DNA from: Anaerolineae bacterium
GTDB taxonomy: Bacteria; Chloroflexota; Anaerolineae; SpSt-600
NCBI GenBank assembly: GCA_025062375.1
Contig: JANXAG010000010.1
Span: forward strand, 1-55,856
Direction of reading: 5' to 3'
DNA length: 55,856 nt
The stretch's first letter is position 1. Each line of letters opens with the position of its first letter. This document shows, piece by piece, positions 38,172 through 45,990 of this stretch. The translations under genes and the position numbers were made by a program. The notes under the pieces are model-generated. The model did not search any database. It was not told where the DNA came from and saw nothing but the letters and a program-made list of their open reading frames with translations.

Positions 38172-39542
38172 ATGCCCCACGTTCTTATCATTGGTGGGGG
38201 GCCTGGAGGGGTAGCCGCCGCCATAAGGGCCGCCCAGCTGGGAGCAAGAGTTACCCTCATTGAAAAAGGAGATGTAGGCGGAAACTGCACTAATAAAGCT
38301 TGCGTGCCTGTAGAAGCCCTCCAAACCACAGCCCGGCTTCTATCTCAGCTCCGCCGAGCTCAGGAACACGGCATATCTTTCAAGGAAATGGCCTTTGACC
38401 TTTCCACCGCCGTAGCCCGCAAAAACCAGGTGGTTGAAGAAATCCGAATGGGAATAGAGGGGCTTCTGGCTGGAAACGGTGTGGAAGTGATAAAGGGCAA
38501 AGCCAGGCTCTCCAGCCCCAGAGCTATAGAGGTTAACGGGAAGGAAATCGCGGGGGATGCCGTAGTCATCGCCACCGGGTTTAATTTCGCCAGACCTCCC
38601 ATTGATGGAATCCAGGAGGAAGGGGTCATTACTCCCGAGGAGGCTTTGAACCTGAGCCAGGTGCCCCCTCGCCTCCTTATCATCGGAGGCGAGCCACCTC
38701 ATATAGCTCTGGCTTCAATTTTCAGCGCCTTTGGGAGTAAGGTGACCCTGGTGGAAAGGGAAAGAAGGGTGTTGCCGGGTGAGGACGAAGAAATCCGCCA
38801 AAGAGTTGGAGCAGCCTTGAGGGAAGAGGGTGTTGACATATTGGTGGAGGCCAGGGTCCAGGCCATAAGGCGTAAAGGCCCGGAACTGGCCGTTTATGTA
38901 GTGGACCGCAGAGGGGAAAGGGAAATCACTGTGGACAAGGTGCTGGTGGTTGAGCGTATACCAGCCATTGAGGATTTAGGCCTGGAGAAAGCAGGAGTAA
39001 GGGTTGATGGGAAAGCCATAGCAGTGGATGAAAGGATGAGAAGCTCCTGCCCCACCATCTACGCCGTGGGGGATGCAGCAGGAGGCCGCTTTTCATACGA
39101 AGCCACCGCTGGAGGGATCGTGGCCGCTGAAAACATCATGGGCCTGGATAGCTACCTGGACAAACGCTTCATCCCTCGTTGCATTTACGGCCGACCGGAG
39201 GCTGCTTCTGTAGGGTTAACCCAGGAAGAAGCTGAAAAGGCTGGCTACCAGGTTAAGACCAGCGTCATACCCCTGGCCCTGAACGCACGAGCTATGGCTA
39301 TGGGTGAGACCGCTGGCTCGGTGAAGATCATCGCTGAAGCTACCTACGGTAAGATACTGGGGGTTCACATTGTGGGGCCATGGGCCACAGAACTCATTGA
39401 TCAGGCAGTTCTGGCCATCAAGCTGGAAGCTCTGGCTGAAGACCTGGCCGAGGCTATTGCTGGCCACCCCTGCCTCACGGAAAGCCGCCAGGAGGCTGCC
39501 CGCGACCTTTTAGGCAAAGCCCTCTATCTACCGAAATGGTGA
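38172..39542 (+). CDS. Dihydrolipoamide-dehydrogenase-like flavoprotein with altered NAD motif
   Basis: Class I pyridine nucleotide-disulfide oxidoreductase fold, 456 residues. The FAD motif [19 protein letters not shown] (~6-24), redox cysteines C39 and C44 in [11 protein letters not shown], the second FAD motif [11 protein letters not shown] and a C-terminal HPCLTES (normally HPTLSE) are present. Two deviations stand out. The NAD-binding loop, normally GGGxxG, reads GGEPPH (172-177). Also, the residue after the active-site CIPS segment is Glu instead of the usual Lys (CVPVEAL). It may have lost NAD(H) use or reduce another partner. It overlaps lipA by seven bases, so a lipoyl-related role remains likely. 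No E1/E2 subunits are near. Confidence 0.85.
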
Positions 39543-40609
39543 AGGGGAAACTGGCGATCCTGAGGCTCGGCCCAATGGAAAAGCGCCGGGCTCTCAATTT
39601 TGCTCAACACATAGCCAGGGCCTGCAACCCTGATTTGGTAAGCGGTTTTCTCCTCCTGGGCTCAGGCTCTGAAACTGAAAGCTACCTGGTTTTACCCGGT
39701 GCAATCTCCCGTCTCGGCCTCGTTTCGGAAGCCTCTGCTGTGGAAATGGCCCTCAACTCCGGTTTTGAGATAACCTGGGGGTTAAGAGAAGCCCCGTGGC
39801 TCAGAGCTAAAGCCCCTCAAGGGGACAACGTGGAAAGGTTAGCTTCCTTACTGGAAGAGCTTAACCTCCACACCGTCTGCCAGGAAGCCCTCTGCCCTAA
39901 CATTGCGGAGTGCTGGGGGAGGGGCACAGCCACTTTCATGATTCTTGGGGATATCTGCACTCGCGGCTGTCGTTTCTGCTCGGTAAAAACGGGTGAACCC
40001 TTACCTCCTGACCCCCATGAACCGGAAAGAGTGGCGGAGGCGGCCCGGAGGCTTGGTTTAAACCATGTGGTAATTACTTCAGTGACGAGGGATGACCTGC
40101 CGGATGGGGGTGCCAGCCATTTTGCTGAAACCATCAGAGCTGTTAAAAAGCATCTCCCTGGAGCCAGAGTGGAGGTTCTCATTCCAGATTTCGGCGGTTC
40201 TCTGAAGGCATTGGATAGAGTTCTTGAAGCAAATCCGGACATCCTCAACCACAATGTGGAAACAGTCCCGAGGCTGTACCCCCACGTTCGCCCCAGAGCC
40301 GATTACCGGCGTTCTCTTGGGATTCTGGCTCTGGCCTCCAGAGGAGGTTTGACCACCAAATCCGGCCTTATGGTGGGGCTTGGAGAAACCCGAGGCGAAG
40401 TCCTTGAGGTGATGGCAGATCTGCGCCGGGCAGGCTGCCAGATTCTGACGATAGGACAATACCTCCAGCCAATTTCCCATAAACTGCCTGTGGCTGAATA
40501 CATTCACCCGGCGGAATTTGAATGGTACAGACAGGTAGGGGAAGAAATGGGCTTTAAAGCCGTCATATCCGGTCCCCTGGTCCGTAGCTCTTACTACAAA
40601 GGTTCCTGA
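39536..40609 (+). CDS. lipA: Lipoyl synthase with an N-terminal extension
   Basis: Radical-SAM enzyme that inserts two sulfurs into protein-bound octanoate. The auxiliary cluster cysteines are C115, C120 and C126 ([13 protein letters not shown]), the SAM cluster ones are C141, C145 and C148 (CTRGCRFC), and the C-terminal RSSYYKG supplies the usual Ser ligand. The catalytic part starts at about residue 85 ([11 protein letters not shown]). The first ~84 residues are extra compared with standard LipA. They have an alpha/beta look ([37 protein letters not shown]), vaguely like the start of LipB. ATG at 39536 overlaps the upstream stop; ATG at 39575 would shorten the extension by 13. Confidence 0.92.
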
Positions 40610-41314: not shown

Positions 41315-42598
41315 ATGAGCAGGTTTTTACTCCTTGGCGTTATCCTTCTCAGCATACTGACCGGATGTGCCGAGCCGCCGGTGAGCGTGGTGGAAGCCAG
41401 AACCCTTCGCTCTGACAAGCCTCGCATCACTTCCCCCCAGGTCCCCGATGAAGACCTTCAAGAACTGGTCAGGGGGAATACAGCTTTTGCCCTTGACCTC
41501 TATCAGATGCTTCGGAAAACAGCCGAAGGGAACCTTTTCTACTCTCCCTACAGCATTTCCATCGCCCTGGCTATGACTTACGCCGGTGCCAGGGGGGAAA
41601 CGGAGAAAGAAATGGCCAGAACTCTCCATTTCACCCTTCCCCAGAACCGCCTGCACCCTGCTTTTAACCGTCTGGATCTGGAATTGGCCAGCCGGGGGCA
41701 AGTTCCGCAGGGGGAAGGGAGAGGTTTCCGGCTGCGCATTGCCAACGCCCTCTGGGGGCATAAGGATTACGAGTTTCTTCCGGAATTTCTTGATGTCCTG
41801 GCCCAGAATTACGGCGCGGGCTTAATGTTAGTGGATTTTGTCTCGGATCCTGAAGGTGCGCGCCGCATTATCAACGAATGGGTCAGCGACCAGACGGAAG
41901 GCCGGATTCGGGAGCTTATCCCTCCGGGAACGATTGACATCCTCACGCGCCTTATCCTCACCAATGCCATCTACTTCAATGCTGCCTGGGCTGAACCTTT
42001 CGATAAAGAATTGACTGCAGATGGCACCTTCCACCTTCTGGATGGCCGTAAGGTCACAGTTCCCATGATGCGTCAGACTACCAATTTGGGTTACACTGAA
42101 GGTGAGGGGTATCAGGCAGTGGAGATACCTTACGAAGGTCAGGAGCTGGCGATGGTTATCCTGTTGCCTGCTGAAGGGAACTTTGAAGCTTTTGAGGAGT
42201 CCCTTAGGGCCGAGCGTCTACAGGAAATCCTGCAGGGAATAAAGTATCAGCAGGTGGCTTTGACCCTTCCTCGTTTCCGGGTGGAATCCGCCTTTCACCT
42301 GGCAGAAGCGCTCAAAGCGATGGGAATGCAAACTGCCTTCACACCATATCAGGCGGACTTTTCGGGGATGGATGGCACCCGTGACCTTTACATTGGCCAC
42401 GTCTTTCACAAAGCCTTCGTTTCGGTTGATGAAGAAGGCACGGAAGCGGCTGCGGCGACGGCCGTGGTAGTGAGAGTAACAGCTCTCCCGGTGTCTTTGG
42501 TGGAAGTTACTGTGGATCGCCCATTTATCTTTTTCATCCGGGATATCCAGACGGGAGCCATCATCTTTTTCGGGCGGGTTGTAGACCCGGCTTCGTGA
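41315..42598 (+). CDS. Lipoprotein serpin (protease inhibitor)
   Basis: Serpin fold of about 390 residues behind a lipoprotein signal (hydrophobic residues 4-16, LTGC, anchor C18). NLFYSPYSISIALAMTYAGA, LTNAIYFNAAWAEPF, VPMMRQ, VEIPYEGQELAMVILLP and the C-terminal DRPFIFFIRD..IIFFGRV are standard serpin segments. The reactive loop hinge EEGTEAAAATAVVV starts at E373 and matches inhibitory serpins, including Gly and Thr at P15/P14 and small residues at P12-P9. The scissile bond should fall near Arg-Val-Thr-Ala, so the exact P1 residue is uncertain. AAAGGAGGTG precedes the ATG. It would protect the cell surface from its own or foreign proteases. Confidence 0.94.
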   Translation: MSRFLLLGVILLSILTGCAEPPVSVVEARTLRSDKPRITSPQVPDEDLQELVRGNTAFALDLYQMLRKTAEGNLFYSPYSISIALAMTYAGARGETEKEMARTLHFTLPQNRLHPAFNRLDLELASRGQVPQGEGRGFRLRIANALWGHKDYEFLPEFLDVLAQNYGAGLMLVDFVSDPEGARRIINEWVSDQTEGRIRELIPPGTIDILTRLILTNAIYFNAAWAEPFDKELTADGTFHLLDGRKVTVPMMRQTTNLGYTEGEGYQAVEIPYEGQELAMVILLPAEGNFEAFEESLRAERLQEILQGIKYQQVALTLPRFRVESAFHLAEALKAMGMQTAFTPYQADFSGMDGTRDLYIGHVFHKAFVSVDEEGTEAAAATAVVVRVTALPVSLVEVTVDRPFIFFIRDIQTGAIIFFGRVVDPAS

Positions 42599-42833: not shown

Positions 42834-43109
42834 ATGAAGGAGTTTATCCGCAAGGCACTTCGCACAGCAGGCGAAATCCTCTACGGAATGACCGTTTACG
42901 ATATGGTTGTGGAGCTCCGCAAGCAGATCGGAGCAATGGAGAACTTTTTTATTTTCATAACCTTCGGTGACCTTTTAGGGGTTCCCATTTTGCCTACTTA
43001 CTATTCGTTGCGCATTTTTCCTTACCTATTGCCCAAGATTGGCACTTGGAAGAAGAGTGCCCTGAGGGAAAGAGAGTTCACCGAGCTCTTAGCCGAAGAA
43101 ATCGGCTAA
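42834..43109 (+). CDS. Small hydrophobic protein, paralogue A of the ArsA-like ATPase cluster
   Basis: Ninety-one residues of unknown function. An amphipathic start with LYGMTVYDM (~16-24) leads to a hydrophobic stretch at ~35-68 (MENFFIFITFGDLLGVPIL then TYYSLRIFPYLLPKI) and a basic/acidic end (TWKKSALREREFTELLA). In an ungapped alignment of 74 columns with the gene at 43713, 44 residues are identical, including GD.LGVPILP.YYSLRI.PY and TWK...LRER. The stretch could be one long or two short membrane segments broken by GDLLGVP. Two ArsA/Get3-like ATPases follow, so it is probably a client or partner of them. AAGGGTGG at 42822-42829 serves as ribosome site. Confidence 0.82.
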   Translation: MKEFIRKALRTAGEILYGMTVYDMVVELRKQIGAMENFFIFITFGDLLGVPILPTYYSLRIFPYLLPKIGTWKKSALREREFTELLAEEIG

Positions 43110-43522
43110 AAGCGCAATATATGACGCGCGTCTCCGGAAACGTGTGATGAAGGTGTGGGAACAACTGTTGCTTGCCGAGCTGTATGGAGCAATTGGCGCC
43201 ACCGTCACCAGCCTGAAAGGAACATATTCCTGGGTGCGGCAGATACAGGAGCCAGAACTATCGGGTGCTCCCCTTTTACGGCCTGCGGTTTATTTACTGC
43301 AGGATGTAAGTGGGCGAGTAGTCAGTGGCGACGGTAAAGCGTCCAGGAGCTGTGCAAGGGTAAACGGGTATTAAGCAGACGTTGGAGGCCTGGTTGCTGG
43401 CTGACTCCAAAGAGTCCGGAAAGCAATGGCGTGACCCTCCTTTTAGGTTAGTAGACTTCGTTTCGGACCCACCGCAAAAACTCGTGGTAATTATCATGCT
43501 TGGCCCGCGAAAACCAGGCGTT
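43110..43522 (+). other. Stretch without a supported gene
   Basis: About 410 bases between paralogue A and the next promoter. Short open frames exist on both strands, but none has a good start, family resemblance or a ribosome site. I found no transposase remnant, tRNA or repeat. Together with the leader that follows, it separates the two small paralogues by 600 bases, so the two halves of the cluster may be transcribed separately. Confidence 0.6.
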
Positions 43523-43551
43523 TTTACAAAAAACATAAGAGGTGGTATACT
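43523..43551 (+). promoter_or_regulatory. Promoter for paralogue B and the two ATPases
   Basis: TTTACA at 43523-43528 and TATACT at 43546-43551 are 17 bases apart, with TG two bases before the -10 as an extended element. Transcription should start near 43558. Confidence 0.8.
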
Positions 43552-43557
43552 ATATAG

Positions 43558-43712
43558 AAAGCCCGAACGAGAGTCAACGCGCAACCTGAGCATTGCGCGG
43601 TTTCCGAGGGAACAAAAGTCAGGTGGGGGAAGCGAGGAAAGGGCTGGACTTTTCAGAAAATGAGCCCCCGTGCCTTCCTCCGTCTGGACAATCCAGTAAA
43701 GGGAGGTGTGCT
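43558..43712 (+). promoter_or_regulatory. Long 5' leader with hairpins
   Basis: About 155 bases separate the predicted start of transcription from the ATG at 43713. The leader holds GGGCT (43641)/AGCCC (43663) and a tight hairpin CTGGA-CAA-TCCAG (43684-43696) ending eight or so bases before GGGAGGTG. No known riboswitch consensus was recognised. The hairpin next to the ribosome site could affect translation. Confidence 0.45.
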
Positions 43713-43988
43713 ATGTCTGAAGAGAAAGTAAAGGGTTTCAGGGGCTTCCTTGATTCGGTTATAGAATTCCTCTACGGAATGGCGGGTCATGACATGACCA
43801 GGTTTGCCCTCAAGACCAGGGGCAGTATGGAGCACCTTTTCATCCTCATTACTATGGGTGACATGCTGGGCGTTCCCATCCTGCCCCCTTATTACTCCCT
43901 CCGTATCCTTCCCTACGTTGTTCCCCAGATCGCTACCTGGAAGCGCAGAATGCTGAGGGAGCGTGACCTTACCGATGCTCTGGCTTAA
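43713..43988 (+). CDS. Small hydrophobic protein, paralogue B of the ArsA-like ATPase cluster
   Basis: Ninety-one residues, same length and pattern as paralogue A: FLYGMAGHDM (~19-28), MEHLFILITMGDMLGVPIL and PYYSLRILPYVVPQI (~39-72), TWKRRMLRERDLTDALA at the end. GGGAGGTG five bases before the ATG selects this start; the open frame extends 40 codons further upstream, but that part lies in the leader and is unlike paralogue A. It sits 24 bases before the first ATPase gene and is probably co-translated with it. No family was recognised. Conservation is highest in the hydrophobic core, so that segment is likely the functional or recognised part. Confidence 0.85.
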   Translation: MSEEKVKGFRGFLDSVIEFLYGMAGHDMTRFALKTRGSMEHLFILITMGDMLGVPILPPYYSLRILPYVVPQIATWKRRMLRERDLTDALA

Positions 43989-44012
43989 TATACTTTACCC
44001 TGGAGGTGAAAA

Positions 44013-44993
44013 ATGAGCCTGGCAGAAGTCTTCGAGAAACACCCCGAACGCCGATACATTGAGTTTGGAGGGAAAGGGGGCCTGGGTAAGACCACCCTTT
44101 CCGCTGCCACCGCCTATTGGCTGGCTAAAAAGGGGTACAAAGTTCTGGTTTTCTCAGTAGACCCACAGGCAAGCCTTTCGGATATTTTCCAGCGGGATAT
44201 CTTTGGCAAAGGTGCCGTTGAGATAATCCCAGGGCTTTTTGCCCAGGAGATCGATGCCGATAAGCGTATAAAAGAATACCAGGATGAAATCAGGCAAAAA
44301 ATTCTGGATATGTATGGCCTGAGCAAAGTCCCCGACGAGGTAGAGCGATACATCCAGGCTGCTGCCGCTGAGCCCGCTATGGAGGAAAGCGCCATCTTTG
44401 ACCAGGTGGTGGATATTGTCGTTAAAGGCGATTACGATTACTACATTTACGACCTGGTCCCCCTGGGCCATGCCCTCTATTACCTCAGCATGGCCACGGT
44501 GTACGACCAGTGGATTGATAAGATCACCAAACTTAGACAGGAAATGGAGGAATACTCCAAGGTTGTGGCCATAATGCAGCGCAAAAAGGAGCTGGAGGAG
44601 GATAAAATCCTCCGGGAGCTTCAGGAAATCCGCTACCGTATAAATACTTCCTCCAGCATCCTGACCGACCGGGAAAAAACCGCTTTCTTCTTTGTGATCA
44701 TTCCAGAAGAAATGGCCATTCTGGATACGGAGAAAGCGGCCAAGCTTTTCGCCAAATACAAGGTGCCTATCTCCGGATATGTGGTTAACCGCGTCCTTCC
44801 AGCGGAGCTGGAGCACCAGAACATACCTGAGTACCTGCGCTACCGCCTGGAGATGCAGAAGAAACATCTGGCTACCATCAAGGAGAAATTCGGCCATCAG
44901 GTTCTGGCCTACGTTCCGGAATTTGAGCGAGACATAACTGGCCTGGACATGATCCACCGGGTAGCTGAAGTTCTCTTTGGTAAGATTGAATAA
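44013..44993 (+). CDS. ArsA/Get3-type P-loop ATPase 1, switch II degenerate
   Basis: SIMIBI-class ATPase with the intradimer signature Lys: P-loop GGKGGLGKTT with K21 and K26. The switch I region reads FSVDPQASLSD, keeping the Asp (D50) that matches catalytic D57 of yeast Get3. The switch II region, DTAPTGHT in ArsA/Get3, here reads YDLVPLGHA, so the Thr-Ala-Pro-Thr part is lost. There is no cysteine anywhere, so neither the ArsA arsenite site nor the Get3 zinc CxxC exists. A helical insertion (~120-220) could form a client groove. The length of 326 residues is close to Get3. GGAGGTG precedes the ATG. It likely works with the next gene as a heterodimer. Confidence 0.9.
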   Translation: MSLAEVFEKHPERRYIEFGGKGGLGKTTLSAATAYWLAKKGYKVLVFSVDPQASLSDIFQRDIFGKGAVEIIPGLFAQEIDADKRIKEYQDEIRQKILDMYGLSKVPDEVERYIQAAAAEPAMEESAIFDQVVDIVVKGDYDYYIYDLVPLGHALYYLSMATVYDQWIDKITKLRQEMEEYSKVVAIMQRKKELEEDKILRELQEIRYRINTSSSILTDREKTAFFFVIIPEEMAILDTEKAAKLFAKYKVPISGYVVNRVLPAELEHQNIPEYLRYRLEMQKKHLATIKEKFGHQVLAYVPEFERDITGLDMIHRVAEVLFGKIE

Positions 44994-45006
44994 GGGGAGG
45001 GAAGCC

Positions 45007-45990
45007 ATGTTGAAAATAGAAAAGAACATGCTTCAGTTCATGCAGGAGCATCCAAACCTCAAGTATGTTTTCTTCGGCGGCAAGGGAGGTGTGGGTAAAA
45101 CAGTGCTGGCGGGGGCGGCAGCTTTGTGGTTCGCTCAGCAGGGCAAATATACCCTCTTAGCATCCACTAACCCTGTCCATAGCCTCACAAGCCTTCTGGA
45201 CCAGGATGTTTTCGGAAAGCCAACGCCAGTAAAGGGAGTTCCAAACCTCATAGCCTACGAAATTGACACCAAAGACACTATTGAGCGTTCCAAAAAGGAA
45301 ATTCGGGAGAAGATTGAGTGGTTCCTCAAATATGCTGATATAAAGACCAGGGCTGATGAGTTCGTGGAGTCGGCCACCATGAACCCGGCCTTTGAAGAGT
45401 CGGCTATGTTTGAAAACATGGTAGACCTTATGTTCAAGGACGAATACGAGGTTTACGTCTTTGATACCGCCCCCACTGCCAACGCCCGCCGGCTCCTGGG
45501 GATGTCCAGCGTTTATTCCCTCTGGGTGGATAAGATGGTGGAAAGCCGTAGGGAAGCCCAGGCACTGCGCAGGCTCCTTTCCTTCACCAAAAGAGAGGAA
45601 AAAGACCCCCTCATGGAATACCTCCTCAACTTCAGAGACAGGATAAACAGGGCCAAAGCCCTCCTCACTAACGCGGAAAAAACTGCTTTCTTCTTCGTAA
45701 CCCTGCCTGAGGCCCTTCCAATTGCCGTTATTCGCCGGTTCATAAACTGGTTCCAGGACTTCGGCATCCCCATAGGCGGAGTTATAGTCAACATGATGAT
45801 TGATAGAAATGCAGTTGGGGATAATCCGCCAGAGTTCGTCCTGAACAGGATAGCGGCTCAGGAGCATTACCTAAAACTGATCGAGGAACTTTTCAACGGC
45901 ATGGTCAGAGCTATTATCCCCCTCTATGAAACTGAAGTCCGGGGCGTGGAAATGCTGAAGAGGACGGCTAAAGCTCTCTTCGGGGAATAA
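45007..45990 (+). CDS. ArsA/Get3-type P-loop ATPase 2, switch I Asp replaced
   Basis: Paralogue of the preceding gene, 327 residues from the ATG at 45007 (GGGGAGG at 44995-45001; a GTG at 44977 inside the previous gene is less likely). The P-loop GGKGGVGKTV is intact (K26, K31). The switch I region reads STNPVHSL: Asn55 stands where Get3 has catalytic Asp57, the same change used in the laboratory to block Get3 hydrolysis. The switch II core is kept as FDTAPTANAR, although the Gly-His is missing. No cysteine is present. Its defects complement those of ATPase 1. A terminator at 46001 closes the unit. Confidence 0.9.
   Translation: MLKIEKNMLQFMQEHPNLKYVFFGGKGGVGKTVLAGAAALWFAQQGKYTLLASTNPVHSLTSLLDQDVFGKPTPVKGVPNLIAYEIDTKDTIERSKKEIREKIEWFLKYADIKTRADEFVESATMNPAFEESAMFENMVDLMFKDEYEVYVFDTAPTANARRLLGMSSVYSLWVDKMVESRREAQALRRLLSFTKREEKDPLMEYLLNFRDRINRAKALLTNAEKTAFFFVTLPEALPIAVIRRFINWFQDFGIPIGGVIVNMMIDRNAVGDNPPEFVLNRIAAQEHYLKLIEELFNGMVRAIIPLYETEVRGVEMLKRTAKALFGE

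Follow-up and report, generated by a model that had tools for sequence, protein, structure and literature searches.

Two Get3/ArsA-type ATPases with reciprocal motif losses and two small paralogous proteins form a conserved gene set associated with CstA transporters

A four-gene set from an Anaerolineae bacterium (GCA_025062375.1) encodes two small paralogous proteins, S1 and S2, followed by two Get3/ArsA-type ATPases, A1 and A2, each of which lacks part of the catalytic apparatus that the other retains. The set occupies positions 42834-45990 of contig JANXAG010000010.1, which was analyzed as a single stretch of 55,856 nucleotides and is called the window here. Comparison of related loci revealed a further companion, the membrane transporter CstA, and we conclude that the four-gene set probably acts on or for CstA, either as a lopsided two-part engine or as an assembly helper. 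A preliminary description made from the sequence of the window had proposed that the ATPases handle or assemble the two small membrane proteins. This idea survives as only one possibility, and the main partner, CstA, is encoded outside the window.

The positions of the four open reading frames given in the preliminary description are correct, and all four genes are on the forward strand. S1 (42834-43109; 91 amino acids) is a helical-hairpin-like, CstX-like small protein that is distantly related to the cory-CC-star family. A spacer of 603 bp (43110-43712) separates it from S2 (43713-43988, with an ATG start at 43713), a paralogue that is also 91 amino acids long. A1 (44013-44993; 326 amino acids) and A2 (45007-45990; 327 amino acids) follow. 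The spacer was not seen in related loci, and the corresponding gap in the nearest relative (L009) is about 11 bp. No second copy of the spacer is present in the genome, and a repeated mobile element was therefore rejected. Two other genes in the window deserve mention in their own right. A putative serpin-like gene (serine protease inhibitor), which is unusual in bacteria, lies just 5′ of S1 at 41315-42598 and has a predicted lipoprotein-type start. A predicted lipoyl synthase-like gene at 39536-40609 appears to carry an N-terminal extension of about 100 residues ahead of the usual start region.

Both ATPases have the fold of the Get3/TRC40/ArsA superfamily. They match PF02374 over their full length (E = 8e-73 for A1 and 8e-66 for A2), score well above the TIGR00345 (TRC40/GET3/ArsA) cut-off of 135 (243.5 and 214.5 bits), and align with archaeal Get3 over the full length at 33-38% identity. 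Likewise, the AF2 model of A1 matches the archaeal Get3 structure 3ug7 with a TM score of 0.77. The deviant P-loop GKGGxGKT is present in both proteins, with signature lysines at Lys21 in A1 and Lys26 in A2.

The remaining catalytic motifs are divided between the two proteins, largely as the preliminary description had stated. A1 has the canonical switch I aspartate of Get3 (D50), and its altered switch II, which starts at D147, reads DLVPLGHA. In A2, Asn55 occupies the position of the catalytic aspartate, as asparagine does in the aligned A2 sequences, and switch II, which starts at D153, retains DTAPT. One detail must be amended, in that the alignment shows ANA instead of GHT directly after DTAPT. 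As a result, the canonical switch II DTAPTGHT is found in neither protein: A1 retains the aspartate, P, and GH, whereas A2 (DTAPTANA) retains DTAPT, has the asparagine, and lacks GH. Because the switch II of A1 is itself much altered, the A1 site may hydrolyze ATP poorly, to judge from its sequence. Neither protein contains a cysteine, as had been noted earlier.

A genome scan seeded with A1 yielded 80 loci, which by record title derive from Chloroflexota, Acidobacteriota, Myxococcota, Rokubacteria, Methylomirabilota, Bacteroidota, and others, some of them metagenome bins whose single taxonomic placements may be wrong. The genome samples include related species and some incomplete genomes, and some of the loci may duplicate sampled genomes. 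The co-occurrence of the four genes, which the preliminary description had proposed to look for, is evident in this collection, with CstA as an added companion. Wherever the sequence extends far enough, A2 lies directly 3′ of A1 (77 of 77 loci). Two S genes are found upstream of A1 in 58 of 65 loci, and one or more in 64 of 65. The switch II of A1 is DYYIYDLVPLGHALYYLSM in all 83 aligned rows, an invariance that is slightly biased because one scan pattern contained part of this motif; A2, which was not selected for, keeps STNPVHSL in the aligned rows. Independently of these rows, even two Chloroflexota genomes (G084 and G150) whose A1 proteins are only 46-47% identical keep the Asp/Asn split, with switch II sequences of DMPPFGHG and DTAAVANA.

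In a maximum-likelihood tree, A1 sequences form one clade and A2 sequences another (each 100/99), and the two are sisters (99/93). Thus, a single duplication explains all of the pairs. The single-ATPase relatives from Cytobacillus, Paracoccus, Pseudochrobactrum, and Acidobacteriota (G218), which keep STDPAH and DTAPTGHT, fall outside the A1 and A2 clades, with long branches leaving the exact outgroup placement unsure. The distance matrices of A1, A2, S2, and CstA correlate with r values of 0.69-0.82 (0.81 for A1-A2, 0.82 for A1-CstA, and 0.76 for S2-CstA), as is also expected from species history, shared ancestry, or joint transfer. The linkage of A1 and A2, the accompanying S genes, the fixed D/N pattern, and the matching distances strongly support the obligate pairing of the two ATPase genes that had been suggested for the window. 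Elsewhere, one locus (L156, at G029:C43) encodes two tandem Get3-like ATPases that both have an intact aspartate and DTAPTGHT, and therefore represents a pair without reciprocal loss.

Clustering of neighboring genes identified one recurrent upstream gene, which encodes CstA (PF02554). The cstA gene lies within 4.5 kb of A1 in 44 of the 58 loci with enough sequence, and all 14 genomes in which it does not adjoin the locus still encode CstA. Among 151 Chloroflexota genomes, A1 and CstA are both found in 16, CstA only in one (G089), and A1 only in one (G002), which corresponds to a Fisher p value of about 2e-19 computed over species that are not independent. The 17 genomes with A1 comprise 16 found by search and one (G137) in which the contig ends inside A1. 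S-type proteins were found in the same Chloroflexota genomes as A1 and CstA. The one CstA that occurs without the cassette, from G089, is of the classical type, and the genome with the cassette in which CstA was not found (G002) is 73% complete. Among 99 Acidobacteriota genomes, CstA is encoded in seven of the seven that carry A1, adjoining the locus in six, and some form of CstA is present in 73 of the 99.

The window genome itself encodes CstA on a separate contig (C21), unlinked to 42834-45990. Cassette-linked CstA proteins form one clade (100/100), and this clade contains the unlinked CstA of the window genome. There it lies next to the CstA of locus L013, whose A1 and A2 proteins are also the nearest in the ATPase tree. 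Genomic linkage of an ArsA homologue to CstA, the arrangement by which CstA-CstX-ArsA systems are recognized, is found in most of the loci, with the window genome carrying the two on different contigs.

The paralogy of S1 and S2 claimed in the preliminary description is well founded. The proteins are identical at 44 of 74 ungapped positions, and their alignment scores 230, whereas 500 shuffles reached no more than 47. Their designation as hydrophobic is borderline, with the best 19-residue means at 1.5-1.6 on the Kyte-Doolittle scale. S2 has a strongly conserved core among 75 sequences (SMEHLFILITMGD-LG-PILPPYYSLRLLPYVVP-I-TWKRRMLRE), and its AF2 model is a two-helix hairpin of moderate confidence (pLDDT 73, pTM 0.39). 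The cory-CC-star model NF041419 matches S1 with 27.6 bits (E = 2.2e-6) and S2 with 33.7 bits (E = 2.6e-8), neither of which reaches the cut-off of 80 bits. Annotated plasmid members of this family are encoded between cstA and a single ArsA gene and have a C-terminal CC, which we take from the family name to be its defining feature; this ending is found in 0 of 143 cassette S proteins. A plasmid search with S2 gave no match, and the same search with A1 recovered mostly arsenic ArsA proteins plus the Cytobacillus cstA operon. S1 and S2 resemble accessory subunits of CstA (CstX/cory-CC-star kind) more than they resemble cargo, and on the basis of size and context they may be equivalent to CstX.

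A relationship of S1 and S2 to YbdD (Sel_put, PF04328) was also considered and provisionally set aside. No Pfam match was found in either protein, and hhalign returned a probability of 0.5 in what is a weak test against a two-sequence template. In addition, no YbdD was found in the 151 Chloroflexota genomes or in the cassette-bearing Acidobacteriota.

Several loci depart from the usual complement of S genes. A third S-type gene occurs in some genomes, sometimes 3′ of A2 (L045:9781-10239 and L063:10038-10295; also in G028, G096, and G120). In loci L085 and L073, a lone S gene follows cstA, and the S-A1-A2 genes are located apart or on the opposite strand. This split arrangement hints at an association of S1 with CstA and of S2 with the ATPases. 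Finally, locus L226 of the Acidobacteriota genome G218 encodes an FCC-ending small protein beside a single intact ArsA, and the same phylum also has the paired version.

Considered as a whole, the gene set, the fixed reciprocal motif changes, the single duplication, the conserved gene order, and the genome-wide association with CstA are best explained by an obligate one-site A1-A2 heterodimer that is dedicated to CstA via S1 and S2, an explanation whose probability we place somewhat above even. We strongly infer that A1 and A2 associate, and they would then make up a single obligate heterodimeric ATPase of the Get3/ArsA class, to which each contributes one half. The sole hydrolyzing site would be located in A1, where its own P-loop and D50 would be completed by the signature lysine of A2. 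The D57N variant of Get3 binds ATP without hydrolysis and traps the ATP state (PMC12506534), and by analogy the A2 site should bind ATP and hold it unhydrolyzed. This heterodimer would work only with a CstA-family membrane transporter, which it would reach via the S1/S2 pair serving as accessory subunits of the CstX/cory-CC-star kind. Perhaps the ATP cycle opens, energizes, or stabilizes the CstA-S1-S2 complex, much as ArsA acts on ArsB.

Coupling to transport, whether by energizing or by gating, has an edge over assembly because the constant companion, among loci that all come from one A1-seeded scan, is CstA and not a membrane insertase. CstA-family proteins such as BtsT, which is annotated as a pyruvate:H+ symporter, act without such an ATPase, and so ATP is not obviously required for transport. 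A bolder and more tentative idea, which we consider possible but doubtful, draws on the docking of Get3 on Get1/Get2. A lopsided Get3-class heterodimer, with one hydrolyzing and one ATP-holding subunit, might dock on the S1/S2 hairpins in a similar manner and make CstA, a secondary transporter, ATP-gated or ATP-driven. If true, this would amount to a Get3 that is coupled to a transporter and carries a degenerate site, and its logic would be comparable to that of asymmetric ABC transporters.

Other explanations account for some of the same observations. The heterodimer might instead be a Get3-like targeting chaperone that shields the small proteins, and perhaps CstA as well, and inserts them into the membrane, with CstA linked to the set because S1 and S2 are its subunits. 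Archaeal Get3 proteins are the closest solved relatives, the helical region is retained at full length in the A1 model, and the borderline hydrophobic stretches and predicted hairpins of S1 and S2 would suit such a role. However, S1 and S2 are not tail-anchored, as their hydrophobic stretch is central with a charged tail after it. Moreover, the cory protein of the single-ATPase operons is less hydrophobic (GRAVY -0.28), and no Get1/Get2-like receptor gene recurs among the locus neighbors. Although a chaperone of this kind merits consideration, we regard it as rather unlikely.

It is improbable that A1 and A2 are simply paralogues transcribed together, each acting as a separate homodimer on S1/S2 or CstA, even though Get3 itself is a homodimer and Castillo and Saier supposed that CstA-linked ArsA proteins may be homodimers (PMC2963123). 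If A2 paired with itself, asparagine would occupy both of the switch I positions. The reciprocal losses, moreover, are fixed in the A1 line as well as in the A2 line, and the two genes always occurred together. More improbable by far is participation in an arsenite or metal export system, which is suggested by the automatic family annotation as anion-transporting or arsenical-pump ATPases. The arsenical pump equivalog scores of 103.7 and 112.5 fall far below the cut-off of 650, and the neighbors are cstA and the S genes. We reject arsenite export given this context, the complete lack of cysteines in A1 and A2, and the lack of ArsB in the window genome, an absence that fits the earlier suggestion that the set is unrelated to this process.

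If the heterodimer dedicated to CstA exists as proposed, it would show a route from a Get3-type homodimer to an obligate heterodimer. The substrate of CstA-family transporters is a central metabolite (pyruvate in E. coli), and within the literature found, what their small partners and the neighboring ArsA-like ATPases do has remained a proposal since 2010. A division of catalytic residues between two subunits, kept unchanged in several phyla, would allow clear single-residue tests of hydrolysis in transport versus assembly.

A1 and A2 share with archaeal and eukaryotic Get3/TRC40 the fold, the P-loop with its signature lysine, and full-length alignment. However, Get3 is a homodimer with both catalytic motifs intact, whereas A1 and A2 each lack a part. 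The arsenite pump ATPase ArsA has metal-site cysteines and two tandem domains, in contrast to the cysteine-free, single-domain A1 and A2. Mycobacterial BagA/BagB (Rv3679-Rv3680) are likewise two different Get3-like ATPases, solved in one entry (PDB 6bs3), but the sequence match is weak and partial (E = 3e-8 for A1 and 2e-5 for A2). The E. coli btsT-yjiX-yjiA and cstA-ybdD genes also place a small partner beside a pyruvate transporter of the CstA family, and CstA needs YbdD for pyruvate uptake (PMC5847655). YbdD and YjiX have no detectable profile similarity to S1/S2 in the weak test described above, and YjiA is from another NTPase family. Even so, btsT-yjiX-yjiA (L235) presents a CstA-family transporter, a small CC-ending protein, and a P-loop GTPase in a row, and is an analogue of the CstA-S-ATPase set.

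The single-ATPase cstA, cory-CC-star, and ArsA operons of Cytobacillus, Paracoccus, and Pseudochrobactrum have related proteins in the same gene neighborhood and differ in having one ATPase with intact motifs and a small protein that ends in CC. Castillo and Saier described 26 CstA-ArsA operons in 2010, most of them with CstX, and proposed that ArsA, supposedly as a homodimer, energizes CstA with CstX as the linker (PMC2963123). Their operons resemble the present set in the single-domain ArsA of about 330 amino acids, the CstA, the small CstX of about 90 amino acids (in two copies in two organisms), and the adjacent ArsA pairs (cluster 15), of which two were reported, in Pyrobaculum arsenaticum and Symbiobacterium thermophilum. 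These authors noted that the switch I aspartate may be asparagine in single-domain proteins without tying this to the pairs, and the text of their paper makes no mention of a reciprocal loss of motifs. Here, by comparison, the genes for the small protein and for the ATPase are both present twice, and cstA may lie at another place in the genome. New relative to the 2010 work are the reciprocal loss and its fixation, the doubling of the small protein, an association with CstA that is near-perfect at the genome level even where the genes are unlinked, and the contrast with the intact single-ATPase operons.
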